Shown here piece after piece: positions 21,537-42,236 of a DNA stretch of 42,736 nt. The DNA comes from Kordia sp. (lineage in GTDB: Bacteria; Bacteroidota; Bacteroidia; Flavobacteriales; Flavobacteriaceae), in the NCBI RefSeq assembly GCF_022447245.1, contig NZ_JAKVBC010000021.1, positions 1-42,736 of the forward strand. The letters run 5' to 3'. Within the stretch, counting starts at the first letter, position 1. Each line of letters opens with the position of its first letter. The notes under the pieces are model-generated. The model had not been told where the DNA came from. It ran no database searches and saw only the letters and a program-made list of their open reading frames with translations. A program made the translations under genes and the position numbers.

Positions 21537-21692
21537 AAAACAAGGCGAAAAGGCAAAAAGTGTTTTTATCTACGTGCTCTAACCAACTGAGCTACTCTCC
21601 TTTATAGTGTGATTTTAGTAGGAGAGGCAGGACTCGAACCTGCGACACCGGCATTCTAGTGCGAAGTATCACTTTTTTACGGCACTTGTTTT
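21537..21692 (-). ncRNA. Y RNA-like RNA Y6 with permuted tRNA module
   Basis: The outer stem is AAAACAAG/CTTGTTTT. Then come the 5' loop TGCCGT, the inner stem AAAAAGTG/CACTTTTT, and ATACTTCG. Inside is a tRNA module in permuted order: T-arm GCAGG-TTCGAGT-CCTGC, acceptor strand CTCTCC, a 20-nt loop, acceptor strand GGAGAG, then D-arm AGCTCAGTTGGTTAGAGC. The Ro-type stem takes the place of the anticodon arm, as in YrlA-type bacterial Y RNAs. The 3' outer strand runs into TTTTTTT, a natural terminator. Confidence 0.8.
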
Positions 21693-21708
21693 ATATTTTA
21701 TATTGAAA

Positions 21709-21815
21709 ATATTAGGTAAAAAACCCAAAGTGTATTTGCCACATCTCATCTTTGAGACGGTTAGGGCTCGAACCTAATTTAAACCTGAAGTAACACTTTA
21801 GTACGACACTAATAT
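21709..21815 (-). ncRNA. Y RNA-like RNA Y5
   Basis: The outer stem ATATTAG/CTAATAT is perfect. Then come loop TGTCGTACT, inner stem AAAGTGT/ACACTTT and TTACTTC. The apical part holds a T-arm-like hairpin TTAGG-TTCGAGC-CCTAA and a capped stem GTCTC/GAGAT, a reduced tRNA-like module. Confidence 0.75.
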
Positions 21816-21833
21816 GTATGTTTTTTATAAAAG

Positions 21834-21905
21834 GAAAAGCAATAAAAACGAATAGGAGTTTAGTGCGATTTAAAGTCGAAGTATTCCTATACTAACGGCA
21901 TTTTC
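21834..21905 (-). ncRNA. Y RNA-like RNA Y4 (minimal)
   Basis: The outer stem is GAAAAtGC/GCTTTTC with a bulged U. Then come the 5' loop CGTTAG, inner stem TATAGGA/TCCTAT(T), and ATACTTCGA. The apical loop is short and has no tRNA module. Confidence 0.65.
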
Positions 21906-21935
21906 CAGAAACTTTATACGATAAAAATGAGAGGT

Positions 21936-22020
21936 AAAAAGTTGAAGTGTTTTTTAAAAGGTTTTTGCAAACCCGCGTGAAATCGCCGAAGTAACACTTG
22001 TGTACGACACTAACATTTTT
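21936..22020 (-). ncRNA. Y RNA-like RNA Y3
   Basis: The outer stem is AAAAAtGTT/AACTTTTT. Then come loop AGTGTCGTACAC, inner stem AAGTGTT/AACACTT, and ACTTCGG. An apical GGTTTGCAAAAACC hairpin resembles a reduced T-arm. Confidence 0.65.
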
Positions 22021-22028
22021 ATTAAAAG

Positions 22029-22096
22029 AAAAGCAATTGAGCGAATAGGAATTGGGTTTCTTTTGGATCGAAGTATTCCTATTCTGACGGCATTTT
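22029..22096 (-). ncRNA. Y RNA-like RNA Y2 (minimal)
   Basis: The outer stem is AAAAtGC/GCTTTT. Then come loop CGTCA, a 10-bp perfect inner stem GAATAGGAAT/ATTCCTATTC, and ACTTCGATCC. It is the shortest of the set at 68 nt. Confidence 0.7.
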
Positions 22097-22104
22097 CTTT
22101 GTTT

Positions 22105-22233
22105 TTATAAGGTGATTTTCAAAAGGACGACTTTTTCTGGGCGGTATTCAAACCGCTTATTTCAAAAAACAAGAATTTCACTTGTAACCAGACGCGTATG
22201 AATCGAAGTATTTCCTTTCTACGACACTTATAA
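22105..22233 (-). ncRNA. Y RNA-like RNA Y1
   Basis: The outer stem is TTATAAG/CTTATAA. Then come loop TGTCGTAG, inner stem AAAGGA/TCCTTT and ATACTTCGA. Apical hairpins are ACAAG/CTTGT, CTGG/CCAG, and a T-arm-like GCGGT-TTGAAT-ACCGC. It is the first Y RNA after tRNA-Gly(TCC), so the two may be cut from one transcript. Confidence 0.7.
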
Positions 22234-25405: not shown

Positions 25406-26932
25406 TTAATCCAACTTCATATTTTTAATTTCTGATAATGCTTTTTTACCATTTCCAATAGCATGCATTACTTCAAAAACTTTGTCACTCCAACCTGCAA
25501 TTAAATGCACGCCGTTTTGTTCGATTCGCAATGGTGCTTGACCATGACCCATCAAGTCAAATAAGTATAATTTGGCATGTGGCGCTACGTTTCGCTTATA
25601 CTTTAACCATTCCTTTTGGATATGATTGTTACCATACGTGCTGTTCCACATTTGTAAATCTGTAAAGAAGAATACTTTGTCCATTACTTTCTTCTTTTGA
25701 TTTAAATACTCAATTACTTTGTAACCATTAGTCGAATAACCTACTTTACCTTCTATTTTTTTCAAAGCAGTTACATTACGTAAAATACCTTTTTTAGGTA
25801 ACGAATACGTCATCCAACGATCACCAAAAATACCTGTAATCGTATTGTTAGAGCGGTTTTGTAATAACATCGCTAATACCAAACCAATATCATAACATTG
25901 TATTTTGCTTTTACCAGAAACTGGACTAAACATAGAACCCGATACGTCACAGGCCATTAATACACGTGTATGAATATCGAAACCTTGAATGTTTTGCGCA
26001 CTAATTTGAATAGCATCTTCCAATGCTTCCAAGATGTACGATGTATATGGAGAGTCTACCAATTGCACTTCATTGTACGCTGACAAGAATCGGAATGGTA
26101 ACTGGCGCGAATTCAACACTGCTTTTTCATTACTCAAATACGCAGCTACTTGCTCCATACACGCTGGAGAAACATCTGCTTGTAAAATGTTACGTAAGTT
26201 TCGCATGATTGCCATATAACCTACTTTTTTACTTTTAATTAAAGTTTCCCAAGTGGCACGGACAGCTTCTTTTTTTGCTGTAATAGAAGCATAGTTTTGC
26301 TGACCAACTTTTGATAATTCAACTTCCCATGTATATGGTGTTTCTAAAGTATCATTTACGATTTTATTAAACAAAAATTGTTGATCCTCATTCGCTGGTT
26401 TTGGATGTGTTAAGAATAACGCATCTTTTAACGTTACTTCACCTTTACGATTATATTTTGCAAACTGATATTCGTCAAACTTTGTAAAAGCCGCAGCAAT
26501 ACCTTTTTGTACTTGTTTTGATAAACGATTCAATTTTTTAACATCATTTCGTTTGTTTGCCAATTGGTAATATGCCAATAATTCTGTGATTTCATCGGCA
26601 CGCTGTATGATATTGTGAATAGTTTTACTTACCAAATTATCGCCTTTATGAATTTTACCCAATTCTACTGCTAATACTACAGGAATTGATCGTAAGTTCA
26701 TTTTTGTACGTGCGTATACAGCTAACTTGGCTACAAATACAGGATCGCAATTTCGAATCAATTTTCGGATTCGTTTCACACGATCGGATGTATTTTCATA
26801 TGTAGTTTTTTCTAAGCTAGTAGTTACTACGGCACTATACAATTCCATTTCTGGAGTCATTTTATAGGCTTTCTCACCTTGATGATTTGTAATGACTTGT
26901 GTACGTTGTTTTGTAAATACATTAAATTTCAT
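25406..26932 (-). CDS. rsr: TROVE-domain Ro60 homologue (Rsr)
   Basis: This 508-residue protein has an N-terminal TROVE HEAT-repeat ring (about 1-330; RIRKLIRNCDPVFVAKLAVY, VGYMAIMRNLRNILQADVSP) and a C-terminal von Willebrand A domain. The MIDAS motif is MACDVSGSMFSPVSG (about 338), with STNGYKVIEYL and VFFFTDLQMW further on. Ro proteins bind Y RNAs on the outer ring surface and misfolded RNA ends in the cavity, aiding RNA quality control. Candidate Y RNAs lie on both sides. The gene has its own operator-promoter (site B). Confidence 0.93.
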   Translation of the reverse strand: MKFNVFTKQRTQVITNHQGEKAYKMTPEMELYSAVVTTSLEKTTYENTSDRVKRIRKLIRNCDPVFVAKLAVYARTKMNLRSIPVVLAVELGKIHKGDNLVSKTIHNIIQRADEITELLAYYQLANKRNDVKKLNRLSKQVQKGIAAAFTKFDEYQFAKYNRKGEVTLKDALFLTHPKPANEDQQFLFNKIVNDTLETPYTWEVELSKVGQQNYASITAKKEAVRATWETLIKSKKVGYMAIMRNLRNILQADVSPACMEQVAAYLSNEKAVLNSRQLPFRFLSAYNEVQLVDSPYTSYILEALEDAIQISAQNIQGFDIHTRVLMACDVSGSMFSPVSGKSKIQCYDIGLVLAMLLQNRSNNTITGIFGDRWMTYSLPKKGILRNVTALKKIEGKVGYSTNGYKVIEYLNQKKKVMDKVFFFTDLQMWNSTYGNNHIQKEWLKYKRNVAPHAKLYLFDLMGHGQAPLRIEQNGVHLIAGWSDKVFEVMHAIGNGKKALSEIKNMKLD

Positions 26933-26978: not shown

Positions 26979-27017
26979 CAAATATTTCGTACTACTGCGC
27001 ATTTATTTTGCGTAGTA
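26979..27017 (-). promoter_or_regulatory. Shared operator-promoter, site B (TROVE gene)
   Basis: On the plus strand CAAATA, 11 nt, then TGCGCATTTATTTTGCGTA: -10-like TATTTG and an inverted repeat with arms CTACTGCGCA/TGCGTAG. It lies 46 bp upstream of the TROVE start codon. Confidence 0.8.
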
Positions 27018-27262: not shown

Positions 27263-28363
27263 TTACTTGTTGACTGAAAAAATGTCTTTCAATTGCTTCA
27301 CAACGCCACCATTTCCAGCAACGGTAATTTCACCAATTTTATCTGCGATTTTTTCAACATATTCCATTTCTTTCAACTGATATAACATTGCGTTTTCTTC
27401 CATCAATTTTGCCGTGTTTAGTAAACTTCTGGTAGAAGCTGTTTCCTCACGTCTGGTAATAATGTTTGCTTGTGCTTTTTTCTGTGCAATTAAAACCTGA
27501 TTCATGATGTCTTTCATTTCACCTGTTAAAATCACATCTCTAATACCACAATACAATACATGAATACCTAAGTTTGCTACCGTATTTTTTATGTTTTCAA
27601 ATACAGCATTGGCAATGTTTTCTTTTTGATCTAACAATTCATCCAATGTATAGTTTCCAACAAAAGCTCTCAACTTCAACTGCATTGCGATATACAATTG
27701 CTTTTCAAAATCCTTATTGTCTAAAATTGCTTTTTTTATGTCAGTTACTTTATACTGTGTGTAAAAGTTGATACGAATTGCTGCTTTATCTTTGGTCAAT
27801 AATTCTTGACCTGCAATTTCTAGCTGTAATTGACGCATATCGACTTTTGAAATTTTAATACTTGTCGCATTTCTCCAGAAGCGATAGATTCCAGAATCTA
27901 ATATTTTTTCAAATTTATCATCAATTAATAAAATCGCTTTTTCGTATTCTAATACTTCAAAGATTCTGATATACTTTGACAAGTTGTAGTTCCCTAATAA
28001 GTTCTTGTCTTTGATTTCAGTGATCTCGGTTTTACTCAAGTCAACTGGTATAAAAGTTCTTTTTACCAAACCTTTCCAATATAAGTGTTGCCCAGCTTCT
28101 AAAACCGTTTTAAAGTTTCCTTTTTCAAATACTAAAACAATTTCATTGTCTTTAATGTCTAATACTTCCAAGTTGTTTTTCAAGTTTTCATCTTGCAATA
28201 AAATTTCACTAGCAACTGGCGCATGAAACTTTTCTGTAAGATCATATGTAACCACTTTTTGACGTAAGCCTAACCAATAGTTACCTTCTGTAATAACTTT
28301 TTGATAGTTCTCTTTTTTGAAAACCAAACCAATTTTTCCTTTGTTAATTCGTACTTGTTTCAT
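27263..28363 (-). CDS. Slipin/SPFH (Band 7) protein, 366 aa
   Basis: Two beta-rich N-terminal repeats (KIGLVFKKENYQKVITEG, EIVLVFEKGNFKTVLEAG) precede the SPFH domain (about 130-290; YEKAILLIDDKFEKILDSG, DMRQLQLEIAGQELLTKDKA, IRINFYTQYKVTD, LRAFVGNYTLDELL). A coiled coil follows (QKKAQANIITRREETASTRS). No transmembrane helix is visible, unlike most slipins. Band 7 proteins are recurrent partners of Ro and RNA-repair genes in bacteria. It probably assembles into rings or cages, here likely in the cytoplasm. The exact role is unproven. Confidence 0.85.
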   Translation of the reverse strand: MKQVRINKGKIGLVFKKENYQKVITEGNYWLGLRQKVVTYDLTEKFHAPVASEILLQDENLKNNLEVLDIKDNEIVLVFEKGNFKTVLEAGQHLYWKGLVKRTFIPVDLSKTEITEIKDKNLLGNYNLSKYIRIFEVLEYEKAILLIDDKFEKILDSGIYRFWRNATSIKISKVDMRQLQLEIAGQELLTKDKAAIRINFYTQYKVTDIKKAILDNKDFEKQLYIAMQLKLRAFVGNYTLDELLDQKENIANAVFENIKNTVANLGIHVLYCGIRDVILTGEMKDIMNQVLIAQKKAQANIITRREETASTRSLLNTAKLMEENAMLYQLKEMEYVEKIADKIGEITVAGNGGVVKQLKDIFSVNK

Positions 28364-28628: not shown

Positions 28629-28984
28629 TGTTTTGTATTTTTAGTAAAGGTTTGTTTTCAAGTTAAAACCTAAAATAATTTGATCTCGATTATCGAGTAA
28701 AAACGATTCGCATCAATCATTTCTCTTTCACGGAAATAAAAATTTTTACAGCTTTTAAATACATTTTTTTGAAGATGGAATCGCACCAAAACAAAACCAA
28801 TTGCTTTATTTTTAGTTTGAATTGATCTTCAAGAAAAAAGTATTTTCCATCAGTAACTCATTTATATCTCAAGGCGATGTCAAAATTGTTGTTCATTTCG
28901 TGTGAAACTGCAACCGATTGATACGTCATCGTTTTCAATAAAAACAGCTTAAAAGGCTGGGGATTTTTTTAGAAGAAATCTAAC
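28629..28984. other. Gene-free 356-bp stretch upstream of the slipin unit
   Basis: No ORF is seen. It includes a perfect palindrome CTCGAT-t-ATCGAG (28685-28697), which could be the operator of the 67-aa/slipin unit, and the terminator at 28941-28960. The TGCGCA operator of the other units is absent. Confidence 0.45.
28941..28960 (-). terminator. Terminator after the Y RNA/tRNA-like cluster 2
   Basis: CAGCcttttaaGCTG on the minus strand is followed by TTTTTATTG. It ends the transcript that holds Y7, Y8 and the tRNA-derived chain. Confidence 0.6.
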
Positions 28985-29205
28985 TTCATGATCTACATTA
29001 ACAGTGTAGTACTCTACCAATTGAGTTACAATAGCCAACCTTGCGGAGCTACTGACCGGACTCGAACCGGCAACATCCTAAAACGTCGTTCTACCAACTG
29101 AACTATCTCTGTAATCGAGAATGGGAATCGAACCCATGACCTACGTATCCGTGGTGGATTATATTTGGCAATAACCCGAAGCCTCCAAGTCGAGTTGCAT
29201 ATAAA
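28985..29205 (-). ncRNA. Chain of tRNA-derived arms (not canonical tRNAs)
   Basis: In transcript order there are a T-arm ATGGG-TTCGATT-CCCAT, acceptor-like TCTC and GAGA around GATTACA, a D-arm GTTCAGTTGGTAGAAC, a small stem-loop (ACGT/ATGT), T-arm GCCGG-TTCGAGT-CCGGT, a 7-bp stem CAGTAGC/GCTATTG, D-arm ACTCAATTGGTAGAGT, and anticodon arm CTACA-CTGTTAA-TGTAG (GTT, Asn). T-arms precede the acceptor stems and D-arms follow, so the modules are in permuted order. No piece makes a good normal cloverleaf. A decayed tRNA group is the alternative. Confidence 0.6.
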
Positions 29206-29282
29206 AGCATGATACAAATTGTGCAACGTTTTATACAATGGTGCTATACAGAAACACGCAACAAGACTCGCTTGATATTTTG

Positions 29283-29521
29283 AAAAGTAGGGCAACAGGC
29301 AAACAACGAAATTTTCCTTGTGGAAAATCGCTCTTACCCTAACAAGTGACTGTTGTATATGAGCAGTGAGCCGGCAATTTGACATCTACGAGAGACTTAC
29401 TTTTTTACAAAATTTTGCCATGTTGGTTTTTAACCCAACTTCGCTAGCACGGTCGCCCGTGTTACGCTACCTTAGGATCGTTATAGTTACGAAGTAACGC
29501 TGTTTTACGACACCTACTTTT
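29283..29521 (-). ncRNA. Y RNA-like RNA Y8 with 23S rRNA-like insert
   Basis: The outer stem is AAAAGTAGG/CCTACTTTT (9 bp). Then come loop TGTCGT, inner stem AAACAGCG/CGTTGTTT (one G-U), and TTACTTCG. The apical domain begins with a 26-nt segment (29465-29490) that matches bacterial 23S rRNA helix 69-70 with one mismatch, including the whole loop GTAACTATAAC. It goes on with CACGG-GCGA-CCGTG, then TAGCGAAG and GTTGGGTTAAAAACCAAC, reminiscent of helix 71. At 239 nt it is the longest of the set. Confidence 0.7.
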
Positions 29522-29529
29522 ATATTTTT

Positions 29530-29679
29530 AAACAAGGCAAAAAGCAAAAAATGAATTGTACGTGCTCTACCCTCTGAGCTACTTTCCCATGTGTATTTTT
29601 ATTAGTAGGAAAGGCAGGACTCGAACCTGCGACACCGGCATTAAAAGTGCGAAGTAACATTTTTTTACGGCACTTGTTT
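29530..29679 (-). ncRNA. Y RNA-like RNA Y7 with permuted tRNA module
   Basis: The outer stem is AAACAAG/CTTGTTT. Then come loop TGCCGT, inner stem AAAAAATG/CATTTTTT, and TTACTTCGCAC. The permuted tRNA module has T-arm GCAGG-TTCGAGT-CCTGC, acceptor CTTTCC/GGAAAG around a 22-nt loop, and D-arm AGCTCAGAGGGTAGAGC. It is a close paralogue of Y6. Confidence 0.8.
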
Positions 29680-29713
29680 ATATATTTATTTCAATGAACT
29701 TTTTGAGCTAATG

Positions 29714-30013
29714 TTATACAGAAACGCTTAATAGAACTCGTTTGATTTTTTTGATCCTATTTATAAGTTCATTTCTGTTTTCACAGTGATTCCATAAGTA
29801 TATACTAATGGTATTCGATTTTTTCTTTTGTAAAAAAATAATAAGCTCTTCTAAATTTTTTATGATCAACACTGCATTATAAAATTGAATGGTTTCTATT
29901 AAATTTTCATCAGAAAAATCAAAAGCATCTATTCCACAACATTCAGCAACACAATAAGTTTGTAACTCATTCCAAAAGTCTCTATCTCTATTTAAAAATG
30001 TATCTGCTATCAT
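29714..30013 (-). CDS. Hypothetical protein, 99 aa
   Basis: A small soluble protein that begins MIADTFLNRDRDFWNELQTY and contains CVAECCGIDAFDFS and LEELIIFLQKKKSNTISIYL. There is no signal or membrane segment. It lies between operator-promoter site C and the Y7/Y8 cluster, so protein and RNAs probably share a transcript. I recognise no family; the RNA context hints at an RNA-related role. Confidence 0.65.
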   Translation of the reverse strand: MIADTFLNRDRDFWNELQTYCVAECCGIDAFDFSDENLIETIQFYNAVLIIKNLEELIIFLQKKKSNTISIYLWNHCENRNELINRIKKIKRVLLSVSV

Positions 30014-30108: not shown

Positions 30109-30147
30109 CAAATATTTTAGATTACTGCGCATTTATTTTGCGTAGAA
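30109..30147 (-). promoter_or_regulatory. Shared operator-promoter, site C (99-aa gene and Y7/Y8)
   Basis: On the plus strand CAAATA, 11 nt, then TGCGCATTTATTTTGCGTA, the same core as site B. The -10-like element is TATTTG on the minus strand. Confidence 0.78.
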
Positions 30148-30182: not shown

Positions 30183-30668
30183 TCAAACGATACTATCGGC
30201 ACACGATGAACTTGCAAAAGCATACGGTTTTGCTTTGAATGCAAAGCCCATTCCTAGGATATATCCCATGGCTTCTTTGAGAGCCACATTTGATTTAAAT
30301 TTTGAGTCTGTATTAATATCTGCATGGACTTCCATTTGAATGTTGTACTTTTCCAATAGATTACGAATGCCATAGGCTGTTTCTACGGATAGCGTTACCT
30401 CTCTGAGCATACGTTCTTTAATTCCTATTTTGGTTGTTCCTTTTTCGTTTTTAATGAACATAAAACCACCTTTTCCTTCTCTGAGAATTACGATCACAGT
30501 ACCATAGACAACATGTGTTTTATAGGCCTGTGAATCTGAACCCACATAGATCTTCAATTTATGACCCGCTTTTTGTTCTTTTATAATGGCATTTTCTACA
30601 AGTGTTGTTATGGGTTCATTGAACACTTTACCTGAAAAGTTTCGCCATTTGTTCACTGCTATTTTCAT
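30183..30668 (-). CDS. YkuK-family RNase H-like protein, 161 aa
   Basis: The protein matches the RNase H-like YkuK (DUF458) family: LKIYVGSDSQAYKTHVVYGT near residue 38 (first catalytic Asp region), KERMLREVTLSVETAYGI, MEVHADINTDSKFKSN (about 112-127, further acidic residues) and ALKEAMGYILGMGF. An RNase H fold with these acids suggests a metal-dependent nuclease acting on RNA or RNA-DNA. It sits between RNA ligase and Y RNAs, which supports an RNA-processing role. Confidence 0.85.
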   Translation of the reverse strand: MKIAVNKWRNFSGKVFNEPITTLVENAIIKEQKAGHKLKIYVGSDSQAYKTHVVYGTVIVILREGKGGFMFIKNEKGTTKIGIKERMLREVTLSVETAYGIRNLLEKYNIQMEVHADINTDSKFKSNVALKEAMGYILGMGFAFKAKPYAFASSSCADSIV

Positions 30669-30801: not shown

Positions 30802-31809
30802 TTACTTAAAAAGAAGTTCTTGTTTAACCATAGTAGCTGCTTCTTTATTAAGTATTTTTGTCATTACTTTTTGATGCTGTTTTTCCATGTTGTTCCAATC
30901 ATTTTCATGATCTTTTATGAAATCTTCTAGTGCGTCTTTGGCAAGGAATCCAATCGTTTTTCCCGTTTGTTTTGGAGAAAACTCACCAAGTTTACTTTGT
31001 ACATTCATCAAACGATTTTCGTTTACATAACTTAGAAGTATATCCATCAATTTTTTTTCAGTTTCTGTAAGCTTTTCTGTTGCACTAGGTTTTGAAACTC
31101 TTGAACGCTTTACATGTGACTTTTCAGACCATTTTTCATTTTTGTTTTTAAAAATAACGCGTTGTCCATTTCCAAAACGTTTGCTTATCAATGGTTTAAT
31201 GATAGTTCCTTCACAAATATTATCTTCAATAGTTGGAAGATTTAACCATTCATGTACTTTAGATTCAAAATCATTTGGATATGCCATGCATTCGCTAAAT
31301 GTCCCTACAAAAAGTGTTTTAGCGCAAAACATTCCTGCTTCTTCAAAATATTTGTTAGCAATGGTTACATCTACATACTGTTTCTGATCTAAACAAATAT
31401 CAAAAGCGTAAAAGTCATTTTCAGGACTGTAAAAAACACCTTTTTGAATGCGAACCATTCCATTGATTTTTTCTACAGCAGAATGTTCATAGCTTCCTCC
31501 GAAAATTTCACCAAAAACGGTCATGATTTCTGTTTCAGGGAAATCTTTTTGTATAAGTTTAAAAAGTGCTGCAATTGCTTTTTCATACTTATTTACTACG
31601 TATTTGTAATTGTTAAAGTTTTCATCTTCGGCGATTAAACTCGTACGTTTTGCAACTTGGATTGTATTTCCATCAGTAATGAATGAAAAGTTAGCTCCAT
31701 GTACTTTTTCTTGTACTACGAAAACATCGTTTCCATATCCGTGAAGGTACACTTGTTCAGTTGCCTTTTTACGGTAGGTATTTTCGATACTATTATATTT
31801 ATTGAACAT
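30802..31809 (-). CDS. T4 Rnl2-type RNA ligase, 335 aa
   Basis: The nucleotidyltransferase motifs are in order: motif I FVVQEKVHGANFSFI (adenylated Lys about 34), motif III EIMTVFGEIFGGSYEH (about 97), motif IV ICEGTIIKPL and motif V RVIFKNKNEKWSE. The C-terminal 100 residues form the accessory domain. Rnl2 enzymes seal 3'-OH/5'-phosphate nicks in RNA on a bridging strand, as in a broken anticodon loop. It follows the tRNA array and a 106-aa gene in the same direction, so tRNA repair is the natural role. Confidence 0.93.
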   Translation of the reverse strand: MFNKYNSIENTYRKKATEQVYLHGYGNDVFVVQEKVHGANFSFITDGNTIQVAKRTSLIAEDENFNNYKYVVNKYEKAIAALFKLIQKDFPETEIMTVFGEIFGGSYEHSAVEKINGMVRIQKGVFYSPENDFYAFDICLDQKQYVDVTIANKYFEEAGMFCAKTLFVGTFSECMAYPNDFESKVHEWLNLPTIEDNICEGTIIKPLISKRFGNGQRVIFKNKNEKWSEKSHVKRSRVSKPSATEKLTETEKKLMDILLSYVNENRLMNVQSKLGEFSPKQTGKTIGFLAKDALEDFIKDHENDWNNMEKQHQKVMTKILNKEAATMVKQELLFK

Positions 31810-32166: not shown

Positions 32167-32266
32167 GACTATTGTTTTTATTCGTTAATATTTAAGAAAT
32201 GACAAGGTTTTACTTGCATCTTCGAGATAATTGCTCGCTGTTTTACATTAAACTACATTTCTTTTG

Positions 32267-32339
32267 TGGAATAAATAGGATTCGAACCTATATCTCTGGG
32301 ACTTCAATCCAGCGCATTGACCAACTCTGCCATTACTCC
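32267..32339 (-). tRNA. tRNA-Phe (GAA)
   Basis: Acceptor GGAGTAA/TTATTCC, T-arm ATAGG-TTCGAAT-CCTAT, anticodon loop TTGAAGT. The last anticodon-stem pair is an A-C mismatch. No CCA is encoded, as in all tRNAs of this array. Confidence 0.75.
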
Positions 32340-32345
32340 AATTTT

Positions 32346-32418
32346 GGGTGTCATCGGGATTCGAACCCTGTTCTTCTCATTCACAGTGAGGCGTTTTACC
32401 AAATAAACTAAAGACACC
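32346..32418 (-). tRNA. tRNA-His (GTG)
   Basis: Acceptor GGTGTC/GACACC with discriminator C, as expected for His. Anticodon stem CTCA/TGAG with loop CTGTGAA. T-arm CAGGG-TTCGAAT-CCCGA (imperfect). Confidence 0.8.
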
Positions 32419-32424
32419 ATTTTG

Positions 32425-32497
32425 TAGTGATAGAAAGAATCGAACTTTCATCTGCCAACGTATCAGATTGACGCTTTACCAGTTAAGCTATATCACT
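32425..32497 (-). tRNA. tRNA-Ile (GAT)
   Basis: A complete cloverleaf: AGTGATA/TATCACT, D-arm GCTT/AAGC, anticodon stem TCAAT/GTTGG with loop CTGATAC, T-arm GAAAG-TTCGATT-CTTTC. Confidence 0.85.
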
Positions 32498-32505
32498 ATT
32501 TTTAG

Positions 32506-32578
32506 TGGCGATAGAAAGAATCGAACTTTCAACTTCTGGCTTATGAGACCAGTGCTTTGCCAATTAAGCTATATCGCT
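32506..32578 (-). tRNA. tRNA with CAT anticodon (Met or lysidine-modified Ile)
   Basis: Acceptor AGCGATA/TATCGCC (first pair A-C), anticodon stem CTGGT/GCCAG with loop CTCATAA, T-arm GAAAG-TTCGATT-CTTTC. Met and Ile2 cannot be told apart by eye. Confidence 0.8.
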
Positions 32579-32582
32579 ATGG

Positions 32583-32654
32583 TAGATCTGAGAGGAATCG
32601 AACCTCTGCCTCAAGAGTCAAATTCTTGTGTGCTAGCCGTTACACCACAGATCA
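32583..32654 (-). tRNA. tRNA-Gln (TTG)
   Basis: Acceptor GATCTG/CAGATC preceded by U1, typical of Gln. Anticodon stem CAAGA/TCTTG with loop ATTTGAC. T-arm AGAGG-TTCGATT-CCTCT. Confidence 0.85.
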
Positions 32655-32660
32655 ATTTTG

Positions 32661-32732
32661 TAAGTCTAATAGGATTCGAACCCATACTCTTAGCTTCGTA
32701 AACTAATGTGCTATCCATTACACCATAGACTT
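32661..32732 (-). tRNA. tRNA-Arg (ACG)
   Basis: Acceptor AAGTCTA/TAGACTT perfect. Anticodon stem TTAGT/GCTAA with loop TTACGAA; A34 would be read as inosine. T-arm ATGGG-TTCGAAT-CCTAT. Confidence 0.85.
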
Positions 32733-32761
32733 GTTGCAACTCCTTTCTAAGATTGCTTTTG

Positions 32762-32834
32762 TACAGAGAGAGAGACTCGAACTCTCAAAAAACTGCTTCT
32801 AAGACAGCTGCGTATGCCATTCCGCCACCTCTGC
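32762..32834 (-). tRNA. tRNA-Leu (TAG)
   Basis: Acceptor GCAGAGG/TCTCTGT with G-U pairs at both ends. Anticodon loop CTTAGAA, T-arm GAGAG-TTCGAGT-CTCTC. The variable arm is unusually short for Leu. Confidence 0.75.
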
Positions 32835-32840
32835 ATTTCG

Positions 32841-32923
32841 TACCTGCGGTGGGATTCGAACCCACATGTGCTTCGCACAACAGCGTTTAAGACTGTTTTG
32901 TATACCAGTTCCATCACACAGGT
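32841..32923 (-). tRNA. tRNA-Leu (TAA)
   Basis: Acceptor ACCTGTG/CGCAGGT, anticodon stem ACAGT/GCTGT with loop CTTAAAC, class II variable arm TGTGCGAAGCACA, T-arm GTGGG-TTCGAAT-CCCAC. Confidence 0.88.
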
Positions 32924-32929
32924 ATGTTG

Positions 32930-33001
32930 TACTCTGTAGGGGAATCGAACCCCTAATTCTACATAGAAAGTGTAGCGTCTTAACCGTTTGACCAACAGAG
33001 C
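32930..33001 (-). tRNA. tRNA-Glu (TTC)
   Basis: Acceptor GCTCTGT/ACAGAGT, anticodon stem CTACA/TGTAG with loop CTTTCTA, T-arm AGGGG-TTCGATT-CCCCT. Confidence 0.88.
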
Positions 33002-33039
33002 ATTTTATGTTAATAGAAAAGTTTAAATTTTCTATTCTT

Positions 33040-33058
33040 CGTCTGGGAAGCAGGATTC
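33040..33058 (-). repeat. Duplicated 3' end of tRNA-Pro
   Basis: The last T-arm strand and acceptor of tRNA-Pro (plus-strand CGTCTGGGAAGCAGGA) recur here 80 bp further downstream. The T-arm strand now pairs with GCAGGA across loop ACACTTTGTGAA, forming a hairpin without the tRNA body. Confidence 0.65.
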
Positions 33059-33122
33059 ACAAAGTGTTCCTGCTACGCCTCCTTGTAAATCAAATTCAAG
33101 TAAGCTTGCTTTGATTTAGTCG

Positions 33123-33195
33123 TCTGGGAAGCAGGACTCGAACCTACATCCTCTCGCGTCCAAGGCGAGTAAACAGCCAATTGTTCTATTCCCAG
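33123..33195 (-). tRNA. tRNA-Pro (TGG)
   Basis: Acceptor CTGGGAA/TTCCCAG perfect, anticodon stem CTCGC/GCGAG with loop CTTGGAC, T-loop TTCGAGT with an imperfect stem. Confidence 0.85.
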
Positions 33196-33201
33196 ATTTA
33201 G

Positions 33202-33273
33202 CAGTACCGACGGGATTCGAACCCGCAACTTCTCGAGAGACAGTCGAGCACTCTACCGTTGAGTCACGATACT
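33202..33273 (-). tRNA. tRNA-Asp (GTC)
   Basis: Acceptor AGTATCG/CGGTACT with discriminator G, anticodon stem CTCGA/TCGAG with loop CTGTCTC, T-arm GCGGG-TTCGAAT-CCCGT. Confidence 0.88.
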
Positions 33274-33278
33274 ATTTG

Positions 33279-33350
33279 TATAGCTACTAAGAATCGAACT
33301 TAGACTAGGAGATTAGAAATCTCATGTGCTATCCATTACACCATAGCTAT
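33279..33350 (-). tRNA. tRNA-Arg (TCT)
   Basis: Acceptor ATAGCTA/TAGCTAT perfect, anticodon stem GAGA/TCTC with loop TTTCTAA, T-arm CTAAG-TTCGATT-CTTAG. Confidence 0.85.
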
Positions 33351-33356
33351 ATACTG

Positions 33357-33428
33357 CACGCCCGCAAGGATTTGAACCTCAACCGTACGTTTTGGAGACG
33401 TACATGCTACCAGTTACACCACAAGCGT
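33357..33428 (-). tRNA. tRNA-Trp (CCA)
   Basis: Acceptor ACGCTTG/CGGGCGT with discriminator G, anticodon stem TACGT/ACGTA with loop CTCCAAA, T-loop TTCAAAT. Confidence 0.85.
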
Positions 33429-33434
33429 GTGTTG

Positions 33435-33517
33435 TGGAAGTAGTAGGACTCGAACCTACACGCTCTGAAGAGACCAGATTTACAGTCTGGCGAGCCAACC
33501 AATTGCTCAATACTTCC
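33435..33517 (-). tRNA. tRNA-Tyr (GTA)
   Basis: Acceptor GGAAGTA/TACTTCC perfect, anticodon stem CCAGA/TCTGG with loop CTGTAAA, class II variable arm, T-arm GTAGG-TTCGAGT-CCTAC. Confidence 0.9.
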
Positions 33518-33524
33518 TTTTTTA

Positions 33525-33701
33525 GAGACAAGGATGAGATTGCTGCACGCTCTCATCAAGCCACAAATTGGATTCCATTGTATTCAAATAAATTTGATCC
33601 AATGTTATCATTGAGACAAGGATGAGATTGCTGCGCTTTCTCATCAAGTCACAAATTGGATTCCATAGTATTCAAATGAATTTGATCCAATGTTATCATT
33701 G
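33525..33701 (-). repeat. Two 88-bp tandem units derived from the tRNA-Cys 3' end
   Basis: GAGACAAGGATGAGATT (the end of tRNA-Cys) recurs at 33525 and 33613, exactly 88 bp apart, and merges with the real tRNA-Cys at 33701. Each unit has a 7-bp stem GATGAGA/TCTCATC with an 11-nt loop in place of the T-loop, and a second inverted repeat around GGATCAAAT. Confidence 0.8.
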
Positions 33702-33774
33702 AGACAAGGATGAGATTCGAACTCATAAAAAACAGTTTTGCAGACTGTTGCTTTCACCATTCAGCCACCTTGTC
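33702..33774 (-). tRNA. tRNA-Cys (GCA)
   Basis: Acceptor GACAAGG/CCTTGTC with discriminator U, as usual for Cys. Anticodon stem ACAGT/ACTGT with loop CTGCAAA, T-arm ATGAG-TTCGAAT-CTCAT. Confidence 0.9.
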
Positions 33775-33778
33775 ATTG

Positions 33779-33850
33779 CGATACTGGTAGGATTCGAACC
33801 TACAACCTCAGGCTTAACAGGCCTTCGCTCTACCATTGAGCTACAATATC
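33779..33850 (-). tRNA. tRNA-Asn (GTT)
   Basis: Acceptor GATATTG/CAGTATC with discriminator G, anticodon stem AGGC/GCCT with loop CTGTTAA, T-arm GTAGG-TTCGAAT-CCTAC. Confidence 0.87.
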
Positions 33851-33856
33851 CTATTG

Positions 33857-33929
33857 TGGAGATACGGAGACTTGCACTCCGTGCTGCGGGATGCAAACCC
33901 ACTGTTTTGGCTAGGTAAACTATATCCCC
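33857..33929 (-). tRNA. tRNA-Ala (TGC), unusual T-loop
   Basis: Acceptor GGGGATA/TATCTCC, anticodon stem GTGGG/CCCGC with loop TTTGCAT. The T-loop reads TGCAAGT in place of TTCAAGT, so position 55, normally pseudouridine, is G. The first acceptor pair is G-C, and no G3-U70 is seen at its usual place, though a G-U lies in the same pair set. Confidence 0.75.
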
Positions 33930-33938
33930 AATATGTTG

Positions 33939-34025
33939 CGGAGTGCAAAGGAATTGAACCTTCACCGCGGTTAAACGGACTTGATTAGCAGTCAAGCGTA
34001 ACAAACCAATATTTACCTACACTCC
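33939..34025 (-). tRNA. tRNA-Ser (GCT)
   Basis: Acceptor GGAGTGT/GCACTCC, anticodon stem CTTGA/TCAAG with loop CTGCTAA, class II variable arm, T-arm GAAGG-TTCAATT-CCTTT, discriminator G. Confidence 0.88.
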
Positions 34026-34032
34026 ATTTTTG

Positions 34033-34105
34033 TTGACGCAGTGAGATTCGAACTCACGACCTTGACGTTAAAAGCGCCCTGCTCTACCAACTAAGCTATG
34101 CATCA
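34033..34105 (-). tRNA. tRNA-Lys (TTT)
   Basis: Acceptor TGATGCA/TGCGTCA with one T-G pair, D-arm AGCTTAGTTGGTAGAGC, anticodon loop CTTTTAA, T-arm GTGAG-TTCGAAT-CTCAC. Confidence 0.85.
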
Positions 34106-34115
34106 ATTTTATTTG

Positions 34116-34202
34116 TGGAAGAAGTGGGAATCGAACCCACACGAGTCGTTAACTCCGAACGGTTTTCAAGACCGTGGCCACCGCCAATTGGCTTGCTCTT
34201 CC
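34116..34202 (-). tRNA. tRNA-Ser (TGA)
   Basis: Acceptor GGAAGAG/TTCTTCC, anticodon stem ACGGT/ACCGT with loop CTTGAAA, class II variable arm, T-arm GTGGG-TTCGATT-CCCAC. It is the first tRNA of the main array, 14 bp after the terminator. Confidence 0.9.
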
Positions 34203-34216
34203 AAAATATCAACCAT

Positions 34217-34248
34217 AAAAAAAGCATCTCTTTTTCGGGAGATGCTTT
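34217..34248 (-). terminator. Strong terminator upstream of the main tRNA array
   Basis: AAAGCATCTC/GAGATGCTTT (10 bp) is followed on the minus strand by TTTTTTTATGG. It lies between the 46-codon ORF and the first tRNA, so the array needs readthrough or antitermination from the promoter near 34453. Confidence 0.8.
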
Positions 34249-34265
34249 TATAAAGTTTCTATATA

Positions 34266-34282
34266 GTTACTATCATAGTAAC
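34266..34282 (-). promoter_or_regulatory. 17-bp palindrome at the end of the leader ORF
   Basis: GTTACTATGATAGTAAC on the minus strand is a perfect 8+1+8 palindrome over the ORF's TGA. It could form a pause hairpin just ahead of the terminator. Confidence 0.55.
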
Positions 34283-34413
34283 GTATCTTTATAATACTCC
34301 CATTTTTTTCTATACATAAAATCTCCCTTCTGTTCCCAAATAAACAGTCTGCAACTTTCCGGCGATCGGAGAATATTTGCAAAGGCGGATATGTGATGTA
34401 ATGTATAATTCAT
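34273..34413 (-). CDS. 46-aa ORF, possible leader peptide
   Basis: I start at the ATG giving MNYTLHHISAFANILRSPES rather than at the longer frame. The 46 residues use 19 of the 20 amino acids; only Val is missing. Four Leu and three Ser codons appear, among them codons rare in AT-rich genomes (CTC, CTG, TCG, CCG, CGA). It has no signal or domain. Position (promoter-like CATATTTG at 34453-34460 before it, hairpin and terminator after it, tRNA array next) suggests a regulatory leader. It may also be an ordinary small protein. Confidence 0.45.
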   Translation of the reverse strand: MNYTLHHISAFANILRSPESCRLFIWEQKGDFMYRKKWEYYKDTLL

Positions 34414-34452
34414 GATATTCTTTTTGTGATGTCTTTTTTGTTTTTGACGTTG

Positions 34453-34460
34453 CAAATATG
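34453..34460 (-). promoter_or_regulatory. Candidate -10 element of the tRNA array unit
   Basis: CATATTTG on the minus strand matches TAnnTTTG at seven of eight places. A TTTG lies in suitable range near 34482. It follows the terminator at 34670 and precedes the 46-codon ORF. Confidence 0.45.
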
Positions 34461-34978
34461 AAAACGATTTTTTGAATACGCAAATAATTTTTGAATTTAT
34501 TTTATTGAAAATCAGTTAGTTATGTTTGATTTTGGATATAGAAATCCCTGTCCGTTAGTTAACGGATATTGAACTTTTTGACAACTGTCTGTCTCTCAAT
34601 TGTTTCTTGTTTCAATGCGTATTATTTTCTATTTGATTATGCGACTAACATTTTTTTAAATTTTTTCATAAAAAAAGCGCCCAATTTCTTGGACGCTTTA
34701 CTGATTGTATAATTCTAGTGTTATTTCATAGTTTGTTTCACTCATAAAAATCTACATAAAGCGTCTCATTTCGCCAAAATGGTTCAACCATTCCGCGATT
34801 TCTGTCCTGACTTTTCAGGCAAATAGAGGCTGTATGTAAATAATATCTTGTCATTAGTGTGGCAAATATGTGATTTTTATGATGTTTCTTCCAAATTTGG
34901 AGAACTATTTATATTGATTTTAAAGAAATTACTCGATAAAAGGGGGCTATATCTCATAAAAAGTTCATTTAAATAAGC
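34461..34978. other. Gene-free 518-bp stretch between tRNA groups
   Basis: It contains the terminator at 34670-34699, a strong hairpin near 34770-34803 (TCGC and AATGGTT arms around a single G, palindrome AATGGTTCAACCATT at 34778), and the smaller CCTGActttTCAGG (about 34812-34825). The two hairpins may belong to an unrecognised structured RNA. No ORF is seen. Confidence 0.4.
34670..34699 (-). terminator. Terminator after tRNA group 2
   Basis: AAAGCGTCCAA pairs with TTGGGCGCTTT (one mismatch, loop GAAA), followed on the minus strand by a run of seven T. Confidence 0.8.
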
Positions 34979-35050
34979 AACGATAGGCGAGACTCGAACC
35001 CGCAGATCCTGAGTGACGGTCAGGTACTCTTCCAGTTGAGCTACTTCCGC
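34979..35050 (-). tRNA. Asp-like tRNA (GTC), atypical
   Basis: Acceptor GCGGAAG/CTATCGT has one mismatch and G-U pairs. The anticodon loop is CCGTCAC, with C in place of the invariant U33. T-arm GCGGG-TTCGAGT-CTCGC. Discriminator is U, not G as in the Asp tRNA of the main array. It may be decayed or have a special role. Confidence 0.6.
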
Positions 35051-35063
35051 TGCCGTTAATAGA

Positions 35064-35195
35064 GTAAAGGTTGAACGAGATTAGCTCACGACTTAATCAT
35101 TTTTAAAATAATGAGTTCATGAACCGACATTTTGAACTCGTACCTCTTCTGGATATGAGGCCTGGTGTTTTTCCAGTTAAATTAGCAACCTTTAC
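35064..35195 (-). ncRNA. 132-nt tRNA-like RNA closed by a 10-bp stem
   Basis: GTAAAGGTTG pairs perfectly with CAACCTTTAC at the ends. Inside, the first part resembles a D-arm with AACTGGAA; further hairpins include GAGTTC/GAACTC and TCATT/AATGA. No normal T-arm or anticodon arm forms. It sits between tRNA-like genes and may derive from one by expansion. Confidence 0.5.
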
Positions 35196-35214
35196 ATATG
35201 TTTGTATTTTAAAT

Positions 35215-35307
35215 TCATAGACAAAAACTGAGCGAGACTCGAACCCGCACCTCCAGAATAAAATGTCTGTTTACAGGTGTTCTTCCAATTAAACCATCAG
35301 TCTATGC
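35215..35307 (-). tRNA. Atypical tRNA-like gene, anticodon unclear
   Basis: An outer stem CATAGAC/GTCTATG encloses a tRNA-like body: a D-arm with AATTGGAAGAAC, T-arm GCGGG-TTCGAGT-CTCGC, and an elongated middle arm (ACCT/AGGT with ACAGA/TCTGG and loop CATTTTAT). The inner acceptor is only 5 bp (ACTGA/TCAGT). I cannot assign an amino acid. Confidence 0.5.
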
Positions 35308-35339
35308 GTATCAAAATTTCTTATTATTCTTTTAAAAAA

Positions 35340-35413
35340 TACAACAGACGGGACTCCAACCCGCATCCTTCGTTTTGAAGACGATGTTCTTCTCCTTTTG
35401 AAACTACTGCCGC
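35340..35413 (-). tRNA. tRNA-like gene with TCA anticodon (UGA-reading?)
   Basis: Acceptor GCGGCAG/CTGTTGT pairs with wobbles. The anticodon stem TCGT/ACGA carries loop CTTCAAA, giving anticodon TCA, complementary to UGA. The T-loop is TTGGAGT (C56 to G). The D-loop is longer than usual. It may be a suppressor-like or decayed tRNA; the folding alternative would give CAA (Leu) with a worse stem. Confidence 0.5.
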
Positions 35414-35433
35414 ATTTTTAATATTTTAATTTG

Positions 35434-35506
35434 TACAGCAGACGAGATTCGAACTCGCAACCCCATGCGTGGCAGGCATGTATTCTTCCAGTTGAACTAC
35501 TGCTGT
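35434..35506 (-). tRNA. tRNA-Gly (GCC)
   Basis: Acceptor ACAGCAG/CTGCTGT perfect, D-arm AGTTCAACTGGAAGAAT, anticodon stem CATGC/GCATG with loop CTGCCAC, T-arm GCGAG-TTCGAAT-CTCGT. It lies 12 bp after the SDR gene. Confidence 0.82.
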
Positions 35507-40606: not shown

Positions 40607-41866
40607 TTAACTATCATCACCAAACCAACATACGCCGATTTGCGCTTTTGAGATGACAAATATTCCGTAGTCATACCAGTAATTATGACTGATATTGCTC
40701 CATCCCGTAAGTGATACTTCTTCATCGTATTTTTTGTCTTCTGCAGGTGTTTCTTCCCAGAAAGAGTTGCAATAGATGGCTTCTATATCATTAAAGTTAG
40801 TCAAAAATACGTCTGCAAGTTGTGAAGCTTCGCTATGCTTCATATAATGTTCTTCATATTTACATTCTTTGATGATGGAAGCAATTATAATATTTCTAGC
40901 TCGTTCAATAGTAACGGTTTCAAACGTTTCTTTGTCGATTTTTTGATTGTCAATCAATTCGTTTTGATATAGTTTTTGTATGATGGTTTTAAAATCATCT
41001 TGCGCAAGATTTCGATCGAAAATATCACAAAATACTTGACCGAGTTGTGCGCCATAGCTTGTCACAGATTTTGATTCTATGAGCAACGCAAGATGTTCAA
41101 TGTTCACGTTTAAATCTAAGACGCCAAATTGTTTGCGAAACAGTTTGTTAAAGTCTTCTGGATTGGGTTTTTTATTGTTGAGATTATTTTTGATCGCATC
41201 GTTTTCCGTAATAATGCTTCTTACCAAATCGATCAAACTTTTGTCTATAGGCGCTTTGCTTTTTTCAATTTCTGTACTTTTCAGCAGCATTAATACGTCC
41301 AAACGTTGACACGATTTTTCATCTAAAAGCGGATACAATTCACGAAAAGCTACTGGCGGAATCGTTTCTTTTTTGTAAATCCAATTTGCACACAAAGCGG
41401 TTCGAATTGCATAGAAATAACTTTTTAACGTCATTTGATCAGAACCTAAACTTTCTTCAAAGTTCTTGTTCATACTATGATAATGAAAGAAACCTGTAAC
41501 AGGATTAAAATTCTTTTCAGCGACTACTTTCATTTCTTCTAATAGTGTTCCTGAATTTTTATATACGATAGGAGAGAAGAGCCAACCTAACAAAGAGGCG
41601 TTCGACTTTGCGAGTAGTTTTAATGCTTTACGAATGTCCCAACCTGAACCATCCAAATCGTCTTCAGTCATGAAATCAATGGTATCTTTTTGTTCCCACA
41701 GATTCAAATACCAATCAGCCTTGTGTTTGTACACAAAACGAATATCGTAGTCTGAATCTGGAGAAGCAAAGCCCCAAGCTCTGCTTCCTGATTCGACAGC
41801 GAATAGGATTTCGATATTTCTATCACGTTCTATTTCGTTGAGTTTTTCTAGTATTTTCGTTTTCAT
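40607..41866 (-). CDS. Nucleotidyltransferase-fold protein, 419 aa
   Basis: The N-terminus has ILFAVESGSRAWGFASPDSD and YDIRFVYKHKADWYLNLWEQ: the GSRAWG motif and DxD carboxylates of the YcgL-like (COG3541) nucleotidyltransferases (about 24-42). Most of the rest is helical (FFHYHSMNKNFEESLG, RELYPLLDEK). The final 60 residues (SLTGWSNISHNYWYDYGIFV) are beta-rich. It is a paralogue of the 353-aa protein and belongs to the same operon. Confidence 0.82.
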   Translation of the reverse strand: MKTKILEKLNEIERDRNIEILFAVESGSRAWGFASPDSDYDIRFVYKHKADWYLNLWEQKDTIDFMTEDDLDGSGWDIRKALKLLAKSNASLLGWLFSPIVYKNSGTLLEEMKVVAEKNFNPVTGFFHYHSMNKNFEESLGSDQMTLKSYFYAIRTALCANWIYKKETIPPVAFRELYPLLDEKSCQRLDVLMLLKSTEIEKSKAPIDKSLIDLVRSIITENDAIKNNLNNKKPNPEDFNKLFRKQFGVLDLNVNIEHLALLIESKSVTSYGAQLGQVFCDIFDRNLAQDDFKTIIQKLYQNELIDNQKIDKETFETVTIERARNIIIASIIKECKYEEHYMKHSEASQLADVFLTNFNDIEAIYCNSFWEETPAEDKKYDEEVSLTGWSNISHNYWYDYGIFVISKAQIGVCWFGDDS

Positions 41867-42197: not shown

Positions 42198-42236
42198 CAA
42201 AGATGGAATTTGATTGCGCAATATTTTTGCGTAGTA
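42198..42236 (-). promoter_or_regulatory. Shared operator-promoter, site D (NTase operon)
   Basis: On the plus strand CAAAGA, 11 nt, then TGCGCAATATTTTTGCGTA: -10-like TCTTTG on the minus strand. It lies about 94 bp upstream of the 75-aa gene. Confidence 0.75.

Follow-up and report, generated by a model that had tools for sequence, protein, structure and literature searches.

The minus strand of a 42,736-nucleotide (nt) stretch of Kordia sp. (contig NZ_JAKVBC010000021.1; hereafter the window, meaning the whole stretch analysed) carries Y8. This apparent member of a Ro-linked Y-RNA family contains a near-exact copy of helix 69 (H69) of 23S ribosomal RNA (rRNA), predicted to fold as the H69 hairpin with one compensated base pair. 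The element shares the features of its Y family, is linked to the Ro gene and is nearly identical in two species, and it suggests that Y RNAs can imitate rRNA as well as transfer RNA (tRNA). Our best-supported inference, to which we give a probability of about 0.6, is that Y8 would display the hairpin as bait for an H69-recognising factor. The window lies on contig C14; its genome, 5.24 Mb in size, is one of 11 from Kordia that we compared, a second Y8 carrier (G001) among them, and the central features are as follows.

29283–29521, minus strand: Y8 RNA, 239 nt, bounded by the two strands of a 9-base-pair (bp) outer stem (AAAAGUAGG/CCUACUUUU) and with a favourable fold z-score
29465–29491, minus strand: copy of the 23S H69/helix 70 (H70) strand, 26/27 identical by blastn-short, unchanged in G001
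29478–29492, minus strand: predicted H69 hairpin UCGU-AACUAUA-ACGA, in which a single pair differs from 23S through a compensated change (by eye)
29464–29500, minus strand: predicted stem GCGUUACU/GGUAGCGU, pairing the 23S-derived strand with the 5' consensus strand of the Y RNAs
29506–29512, minus strand: UGUCGUA motif adjoining the outer stem, common to the Kordia Y family and a putative Ro contact site

A 23S helix 69 copy within Y8

Comparison of the Y8 region (29250–29530) with four Kordia rRNA loci (L062–L065) by blastn-short, a check already suggested in an earlier note on this DNA, returned one strong match: the minus strand of 29465–29491 is identical in 26 of 27 nt to the H69/H70 strand of 23S rRNA (E = 9.7e-8), equally so at each of the four loci, and the remaining matches listed are exact words of 9–11 nt at no more than 22.3 bits. 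The earlier note had described 26 nt at 29465–29490 with one mismatch; the copy and its single mismatch stand, while the length becomes 27 nt. Relatives' 23S was taken as the reference because a search of the contigs of the window's own assembly yielded no 23S H69. Identity to 23S stops at GUAGCG, and since no similarity is present beyond that point the helix 71-like stem once proposed to follow was rejected; by eye only, the hairpin after the 23S-like part resembles a degenerate T-arm rather than helix 71. The broader proposal, that Y8 is a Y RNA copying rRNA, thus loses its helix 71 part and keeps its Y-family features and folded H69 hairpin.

The match was set against a background of 55 sequences (1.03 Mb) made up of 50 entries with a Ro gene, two known duplicates and three Ro-less Kordia loci, a set in which the G001 locus is present twice (L036, L054) and further overlap among the 50 is possible. 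Queried with Kordia 16S and 23S, only Y8 (in the window and G001, 46.4 bits) and the viral contig L048 (49.1 bits) rise above noise, the next match standing at 31.9 bits, which is also the maximum for reversed queries; by this comparison a copy near Ro is therefore absent from nearly all Ro lineages. On its own, the 11-mer of the loop lacks significance (three matches, and three for the reversed control), whereas the 13-mer that adds the closing pairs is (three matches against none, the three being two loci of which one is duplicated). A 17-mer (ACTTCGTAACTATAACG) occurs in 2 of 395 sampled genomes of the class, namely the window's own and one unrelated place (G799), which we rejected as a Y8 homologue: its surroundings are unrelated and, by eye, UGYCGU is not at the expected distance. 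Two 11-mers of the 16S 3' end in L045 and L046 look like chance. Against phages and plasmids, the best 15 of 21 and 10 of 519 records respectively match Y8 over the H69 stretch only, bar one weak row each, and are presumably 23S genes.

These figures bear directly on whether the likeness is a coincidence or a homing-endonuclease target of the I-CeuI kind. The 23S stretch copied is a known homing site, and this counts for such a target; the strength of the match (26/27; 46.4 bits against 31.9 reversed) and the placing and folding of the copy within a member of an RNA family count against both ideas, and Pfam finds no homing endonuclease in the ten island open reading frames scanned, three of which have no family at all. 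We regard either explanation as scarcely credible.

Predicted fold and fit to the Y-RNA scaffold

The whole of Y8 folds with a z-score of −2.86 (2 of 200 shuffles are equally good). Within it the exact 7-nt H69 loop AACUAUA, kept in full as the earlier note had said, is closed by UCGU/ACGA with predicted pair probabilities of 0.83–0.94 in the window and 0.79–0.89 in G001, and the enclosing stem reaches 0.80–0.95 and 0.58–0.86, respectively. A GNRA hairpin, CACGG-GCGA-CCGUG, is predicted 3' of the copy, as had also been expected. By eye, the sole mismatch to 23S (G to A) opposes a C-to-U change just beyond the match; at this position of the H69 stem the C-G pair of 23S has become U-A in Y8, pairing being retained. 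The U belongs to ACUUCG, a sequence found at the same point in most Kordia Y RNAs, and the graft therefore appears fitted to the Y-RNA strand.

Y8 shares the features of a Ro-linked Y-RNA family

A regular expression recovered 21 Y motifs, seven at each of three Ro loci (window, G001 and K. algicida), and a 9-spacer pattern found an additional one at 21787–21808 of the window; this pattern was used instead of the 10-spacer genus pattern, which misses most Y RNAs. In 19 of the 21 an outer stem of 6–10 bp forms between the bases before UGYCGU and the strand just past a short 3' motif, and stems of at least 6 bp beside that 3' motif arise at 4.3% of 1200 random places. The corresponding alignment (A1; 19 rows, 11 distinct) leaves out the motifs at window 22009 and L054 14831, whose stems are shorter than 6 bp; all seven of its pairs have changed on both sides, and its covariation score is reached by none of 500 shuffles.

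The family is also tied to Ro by its distribution. Ro is present in 3 of the 11 Kordia genomes, in which the 9-spacer motif matches 6, 5 and 5 times, always inside the Ro locus; the eight Ro-less genomes hold 7 scattered matches in total against 13 for the reversed-pattern control. Y RNAs in Kordia therefore travel with Ro, and for Y8 itself the Ro gene is encoded on the same strand some 2.3 kb downstream, in a gene order that is the same in G001. Y8 is accompanied by the following relatives and tRNA-like elements.

29529–29680, minus strand: neighbouring Y RNA with a tRNA-like (YrlA) domain, 152 nt, outer stem UAAACAAG/CUUGUUUA
28964–29147, minus strand: elements resembling tRNA or YrlA (Rfam matches), located between Y8 and the SPFH gene
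21537–22233, minus strand: additional Y RNAs clustered downstream of Ro, comprising five regular-expression matches and the one at 21787–21808

The neighbouring Y RNA matches YrlA at 29559–29638 (E = 8.6e-6), and further YrlA-like matches lie at 29080–29147 and 29009–29077, all three under the Rfam gathering score, which the tRNA match at 28964–29035 exceeds; the earlier claim that the neighbours of Y8 copy tRNA agrees with these matches. Sequence similar to the row at 28964–29147 is seen by eye in the Ro-less Kordia loci L056 and L057, and these elements may be independent of Ro. Y8 was rejected as a YrlA RNA: its only Rfam match up to E = 10 is a chance-level cis-regulatory family on the opposite strand.

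Conservation of Y8 and its place in an RNA-repair island

Y8 recurs in one other Kordia, G001, with six differences, all within 29346–29362; the H69 loop AACUAUA and the UCCUAA bulge are the same in both. Over the same locus four-fold degenerate sites differ at 48 of 174 positions in Ro, 38 of 93 in the SPFH gene and 25 of 95 in the ligase (26–41%), counts from which the RNase H-like gene is missing because no alignment was obtained for it in the G001 locus. The copied segment is accordingly kept in the one close homologue found, a point on which the earlier note had staked its interpretation, although K. algicida is without Y8. Upstream of Y8 the two sequences are unrelated from about 29524 on. 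Purifying selection on Y8 is the simpler reading of this near-identity, and exchange between strains would be a possible contributor.

Judged by its genes, the minus strand of the window is an RNA-repair island that, besides the Y-like RNAs, includes the following.

25406–26932, minus strand: Ro60/TROVE protein, 508 amino acids (PF05731, E = 4.5e-31; vWA_Ro60)
27263–28363, minus strand: SPFH/Band-7 protein (PF01145)
29714–30013, minus strand: DUF6331 protein, in the slot that also holds Y8 (PF19856)
30183–30668, minus strand: RNase H-like protein (PF04308)
30802–31809, minus strand: T4 Rnl2-type RNA ligase (PF09414, PF18043)
32266–35506, minus strand: array of 24 tRNA genes predicted by ARAGORN
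40607–41866, minus strand: RlaP RNA-repair nucleotidyltransferase (PF10127)
30125–30145, no strand assigned: inverted repeat before the slot with DUF6331 and Y8, putatively an operator
26995–27015, no strand assigned: the same inverted repeat before Ro, likewise putatively an operator

The tRNA array beside the repair genes includes a predicted tRNA-SeC and other unusual tRNAs (34977–35414).

The inverted repeat, CTACGCA-N7-TGCGCAG, occurs at four places in the genome when up to one mismatch is allowed, all on contig C14 (the two in the window and those at 42214 and 51607), and is probably the operator of the island's regulon. In five Kordia genomes a related element opens a slot that is closed by the tail also found after Y8, and the contents of this slot, with RNA types assigned by eye, differ: the window has Y8 together with DUF6331 and a Y RNA; G001 has Y8, after the operator-like element and a leader; and K. 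algicida (L055 11163–11405) has a different RNA with tRNA-like ends around a long insert. The Ro-less genomes G003 and G005 have no such cargo, and G005 also lacks the leader hairpin. Y8 therefore appears to be interchangeable cargo of a seemingly regulated island.

This setting invites the thought that Y8 is a nuclease decoy, its H69 competing with 23S for an H69-cleaving ribotoxin within an island for repair and replacement of damaged RNAs, and the presence of the Rnl2-type ligase, RlaP, Ro and 24 tRNA genes fits such a role. To our knowledge no H69-cleaving enzyme has been described, which weighs against a decoy even though no genome search for one was made, and none of the literature matches listed pointed to such an enzyme. 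Some MazF toxins cut UUCCU of H70, but the 23S identity of Y8 ends before that sequence. We consider a decoy improbable.

Excised rRNA parts in viral RNAs

Apart from Y8, the surroundings of the 50 Ro loci hold a single rRNA-like stretch, a copy of the 23S L11/GTPase centre in viral contig L048, which is part of the putative phage RNA family described here. Scanning viral contigs for the GTPase-centre segment gave 14 contigs, one of which (L066) is genuine 23S; the remaining 13 (L067–L079) represent eight flank types by eye, and in every one the second half of the centre, GCGUA--AGCACAC, lies 93–241 nt beyond the first. It is likewise present in the named phages pf16, UNO-G1W1, 4_4572 and XacN1 (with GCGCAC in two of the four), whose matches lie as follows.

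L229 2501–2537; L230 2501–2534; L231 2501–2533; L232 2501–2533: GTPase-centre matches in named phages

No annotated feature underlies these four matches; three are near annotated tRNA genes, and that of XacN1 adjoins a 2'-5' RNA ligase. Changes in the hairpin foot preserve pairing (by eye). At gathering score Rfam finds nothing but tRNAs in nine phage loci of this kind, and the pf16 segment matches archaeal large-subunit rRNA at E = 3.3e-4, under that score. Because Ro is present in only 1 of the 13 records, some of which are possibly fragments, the phage RNA is not a Ro RNA. This putative family, often located within or close to tRNA arrays, shows excised rRNA parts maintained as separate RNAs.

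For H69 itself, a strict pattern matched one viral contig, a genuine 23S. A looser pattern gave at least 120 viral stretches (L080–L199) sharing one hairpin; at 18 fixed positions the opposite strand of this hairpin can pair with 23S H69. Among cores away from contig ends 59 are distinct, and 32 of these lie in a stop-free frame of at least 60 amino acids. We rejected these stretches as H69 copies, since by eye the hairpin follows the 3' end of an opposite-strand gene and is hence antisense to H69; we treat it as a single family, and coincidence is possible.

Proposed function

In the mechanism we favour, the island would be switched on via the shared operator-like element, and Ro would hold Y8 by its outer stem and UGUCGUA motif, as the family features suggest. 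The displayed hairpin could then either recruit the Ro complex to immature or damaged 23S or hold it away, and in this manner Y8 would tune Ro-linked rRNA maturation or decay. We liken this bait to YrlA because YrlA is modified by TruB and DusA, being a substrate of both (PMC8394870; this and the other papers cited are drawn on in extract). An enzyme of the RluD type is perhaps the partner, an assignment that we hold as doubtful; the genome has six RluA-family synthase matches, two above the curated cut-off.

Several observations weigh against the bait. H69 enzymes may need ribosomal particles, and Y8 has no RF02553 (YrlA) match in an Rfam search to E = 10. It is known from two species only, K. 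algicida having Ro and seven motif-defined Y RNAs but no Y8. The tail after Y8 (29281–29222) shows no differences between the window and G001, and identity continues at 93–97% to 29167 and at 75–95% thereafter; this unchanged tail, part of which is also conserved in Ro-less Kordia, means that some of the identity of Y8 could be owed to recent exchange. As for the family, the outer-stem test is weaker without the 3' motif (mean 7.9 against 5.6 bp, with 8 bp reached by 10% of random places), the 97.4% of cells paired in the stem alignment is inflated by 3' strands having been chosen for pairing, and the count of further pair types, one of five measures, is not above shuffles (378 of 500).

Some of these points would equally suit a captured scrap, a 23S fragment kept in a Y RNA only for its stable stem, with its H69 identity functionless: the copy is found in one Y RNA of one lineage, slot contents vary between species, the identity runs past Y8 as if from recent exchange, and the 23S-derived strand GGUAGCGU does act as a structural strand in the predicted fold. 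A mere stem-former would not, however, readily account for the fixity of loop and bulge while 26–41% of nearby four-fold sites have changed, and Y8 does vary, but only at 29346–29362; we think a scrap unlikely.

Recycling factors and the 30S decoding site contact H69 in the ribosome, and an H69 mimic might thus let the Ro ribonucleoprotein touch either, anchoring it on subunits under stress. The exact loop of this bridge hairpin in Y8 speaks for such docking, as does, by comparison, the phage RNA GOLLD, which bacterial ribosomes bind in pull-downs (PMC12286853). No sequence feature, on the other side, separates docking from enzyme bait, and we judge docking very unlikely.

Bacterial Y RNAs are known to mimic tRNA and to tether and gate Ro. 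If the bait holds, the mimic module of Y RNAs would be exchangeable, with an effector domain bearing a ribosomal hairpin instead of tRNA; Y8 would open a way to study the engagement of 23S rRNA by Ro complexes, and the role of Y-RNA effector domains would become testable through a hairpin with known modifying enzymes. Together, Y8 and the phage GTPase-centre RNAs suggest that imitating parts of rRNA is a more widespread strategy. We put forward, tentatively and at less than even odds, a general class of small RNAs in RNA-repair islands and phage tRNA arrays that would present excised large-subunit parts (H69; the L11/GTPase centre) to capture or fool ribosome-acting factors, grafted in Kordia onto a Ro/Y RNA system whose Y RNAs would serve as interchangeable platforms for tRNA or rRNA mimicry.

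Comparison with known systems

In the leaders of ribosomal-protein operons a non-ribosomal RNA reproduces a site of rRNA and so binds a ribosome-related factor, much as proposed for Y8; those leaders are cis-acting parts of messenger RNAs, however, and H69 is not a primary ribosomal-protein site. The open-access literature searched, as extracted, contains no rRNA-mimicking Y RNA or phage RNA. GOLLD and ROOL resemble the phage GTPase-centre RNA alone, as large unexplained RNAs near phage tRNA islands; the phage loci scanned have no Rfam match to either, and the extract of PMC12286853 mentions no rRNA copy for them. Phage RNA repair includes TROVE and RlaP, and the systems with TROVE, RNA ligases and RlaP (PMC7824862) are matched by the window's TROVE, Rnl2-type ligase and RlaP, to which the window adds an rRNA-hairpin Y RNA and the 24-tRNA array.

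In Deinococcus, Rsr acts in rRNA maturation and decay with the Y RNA as tether and gate, tethering Ro to a nuclease and gating substrates in RYPER, a likeness to the proposed role of Y8 that stops at the copy itself, since the extract describes no rRNA copy in that Y RNA (PMC4726728). RYPER targets PNPase to structured RNAs, rRNAs among them (PMC8394870), and an anticodon nuclease is possibly inhibited competitively by YrlA (PMC7790460). YrlA (Rfam RF02553) with Ro60/Rsr is the comparison that reaches furthest: although Y8 mimics 23S H69 rather than tRNA, measures 239 nt and has no RF02553 match, both are Ro-adjacent in an RNA-repair island, both have a long outer stem, in Y8 a putative handle for Ro, and both carry a modular effector domain that imitates a translation RNA (PMC8394870).
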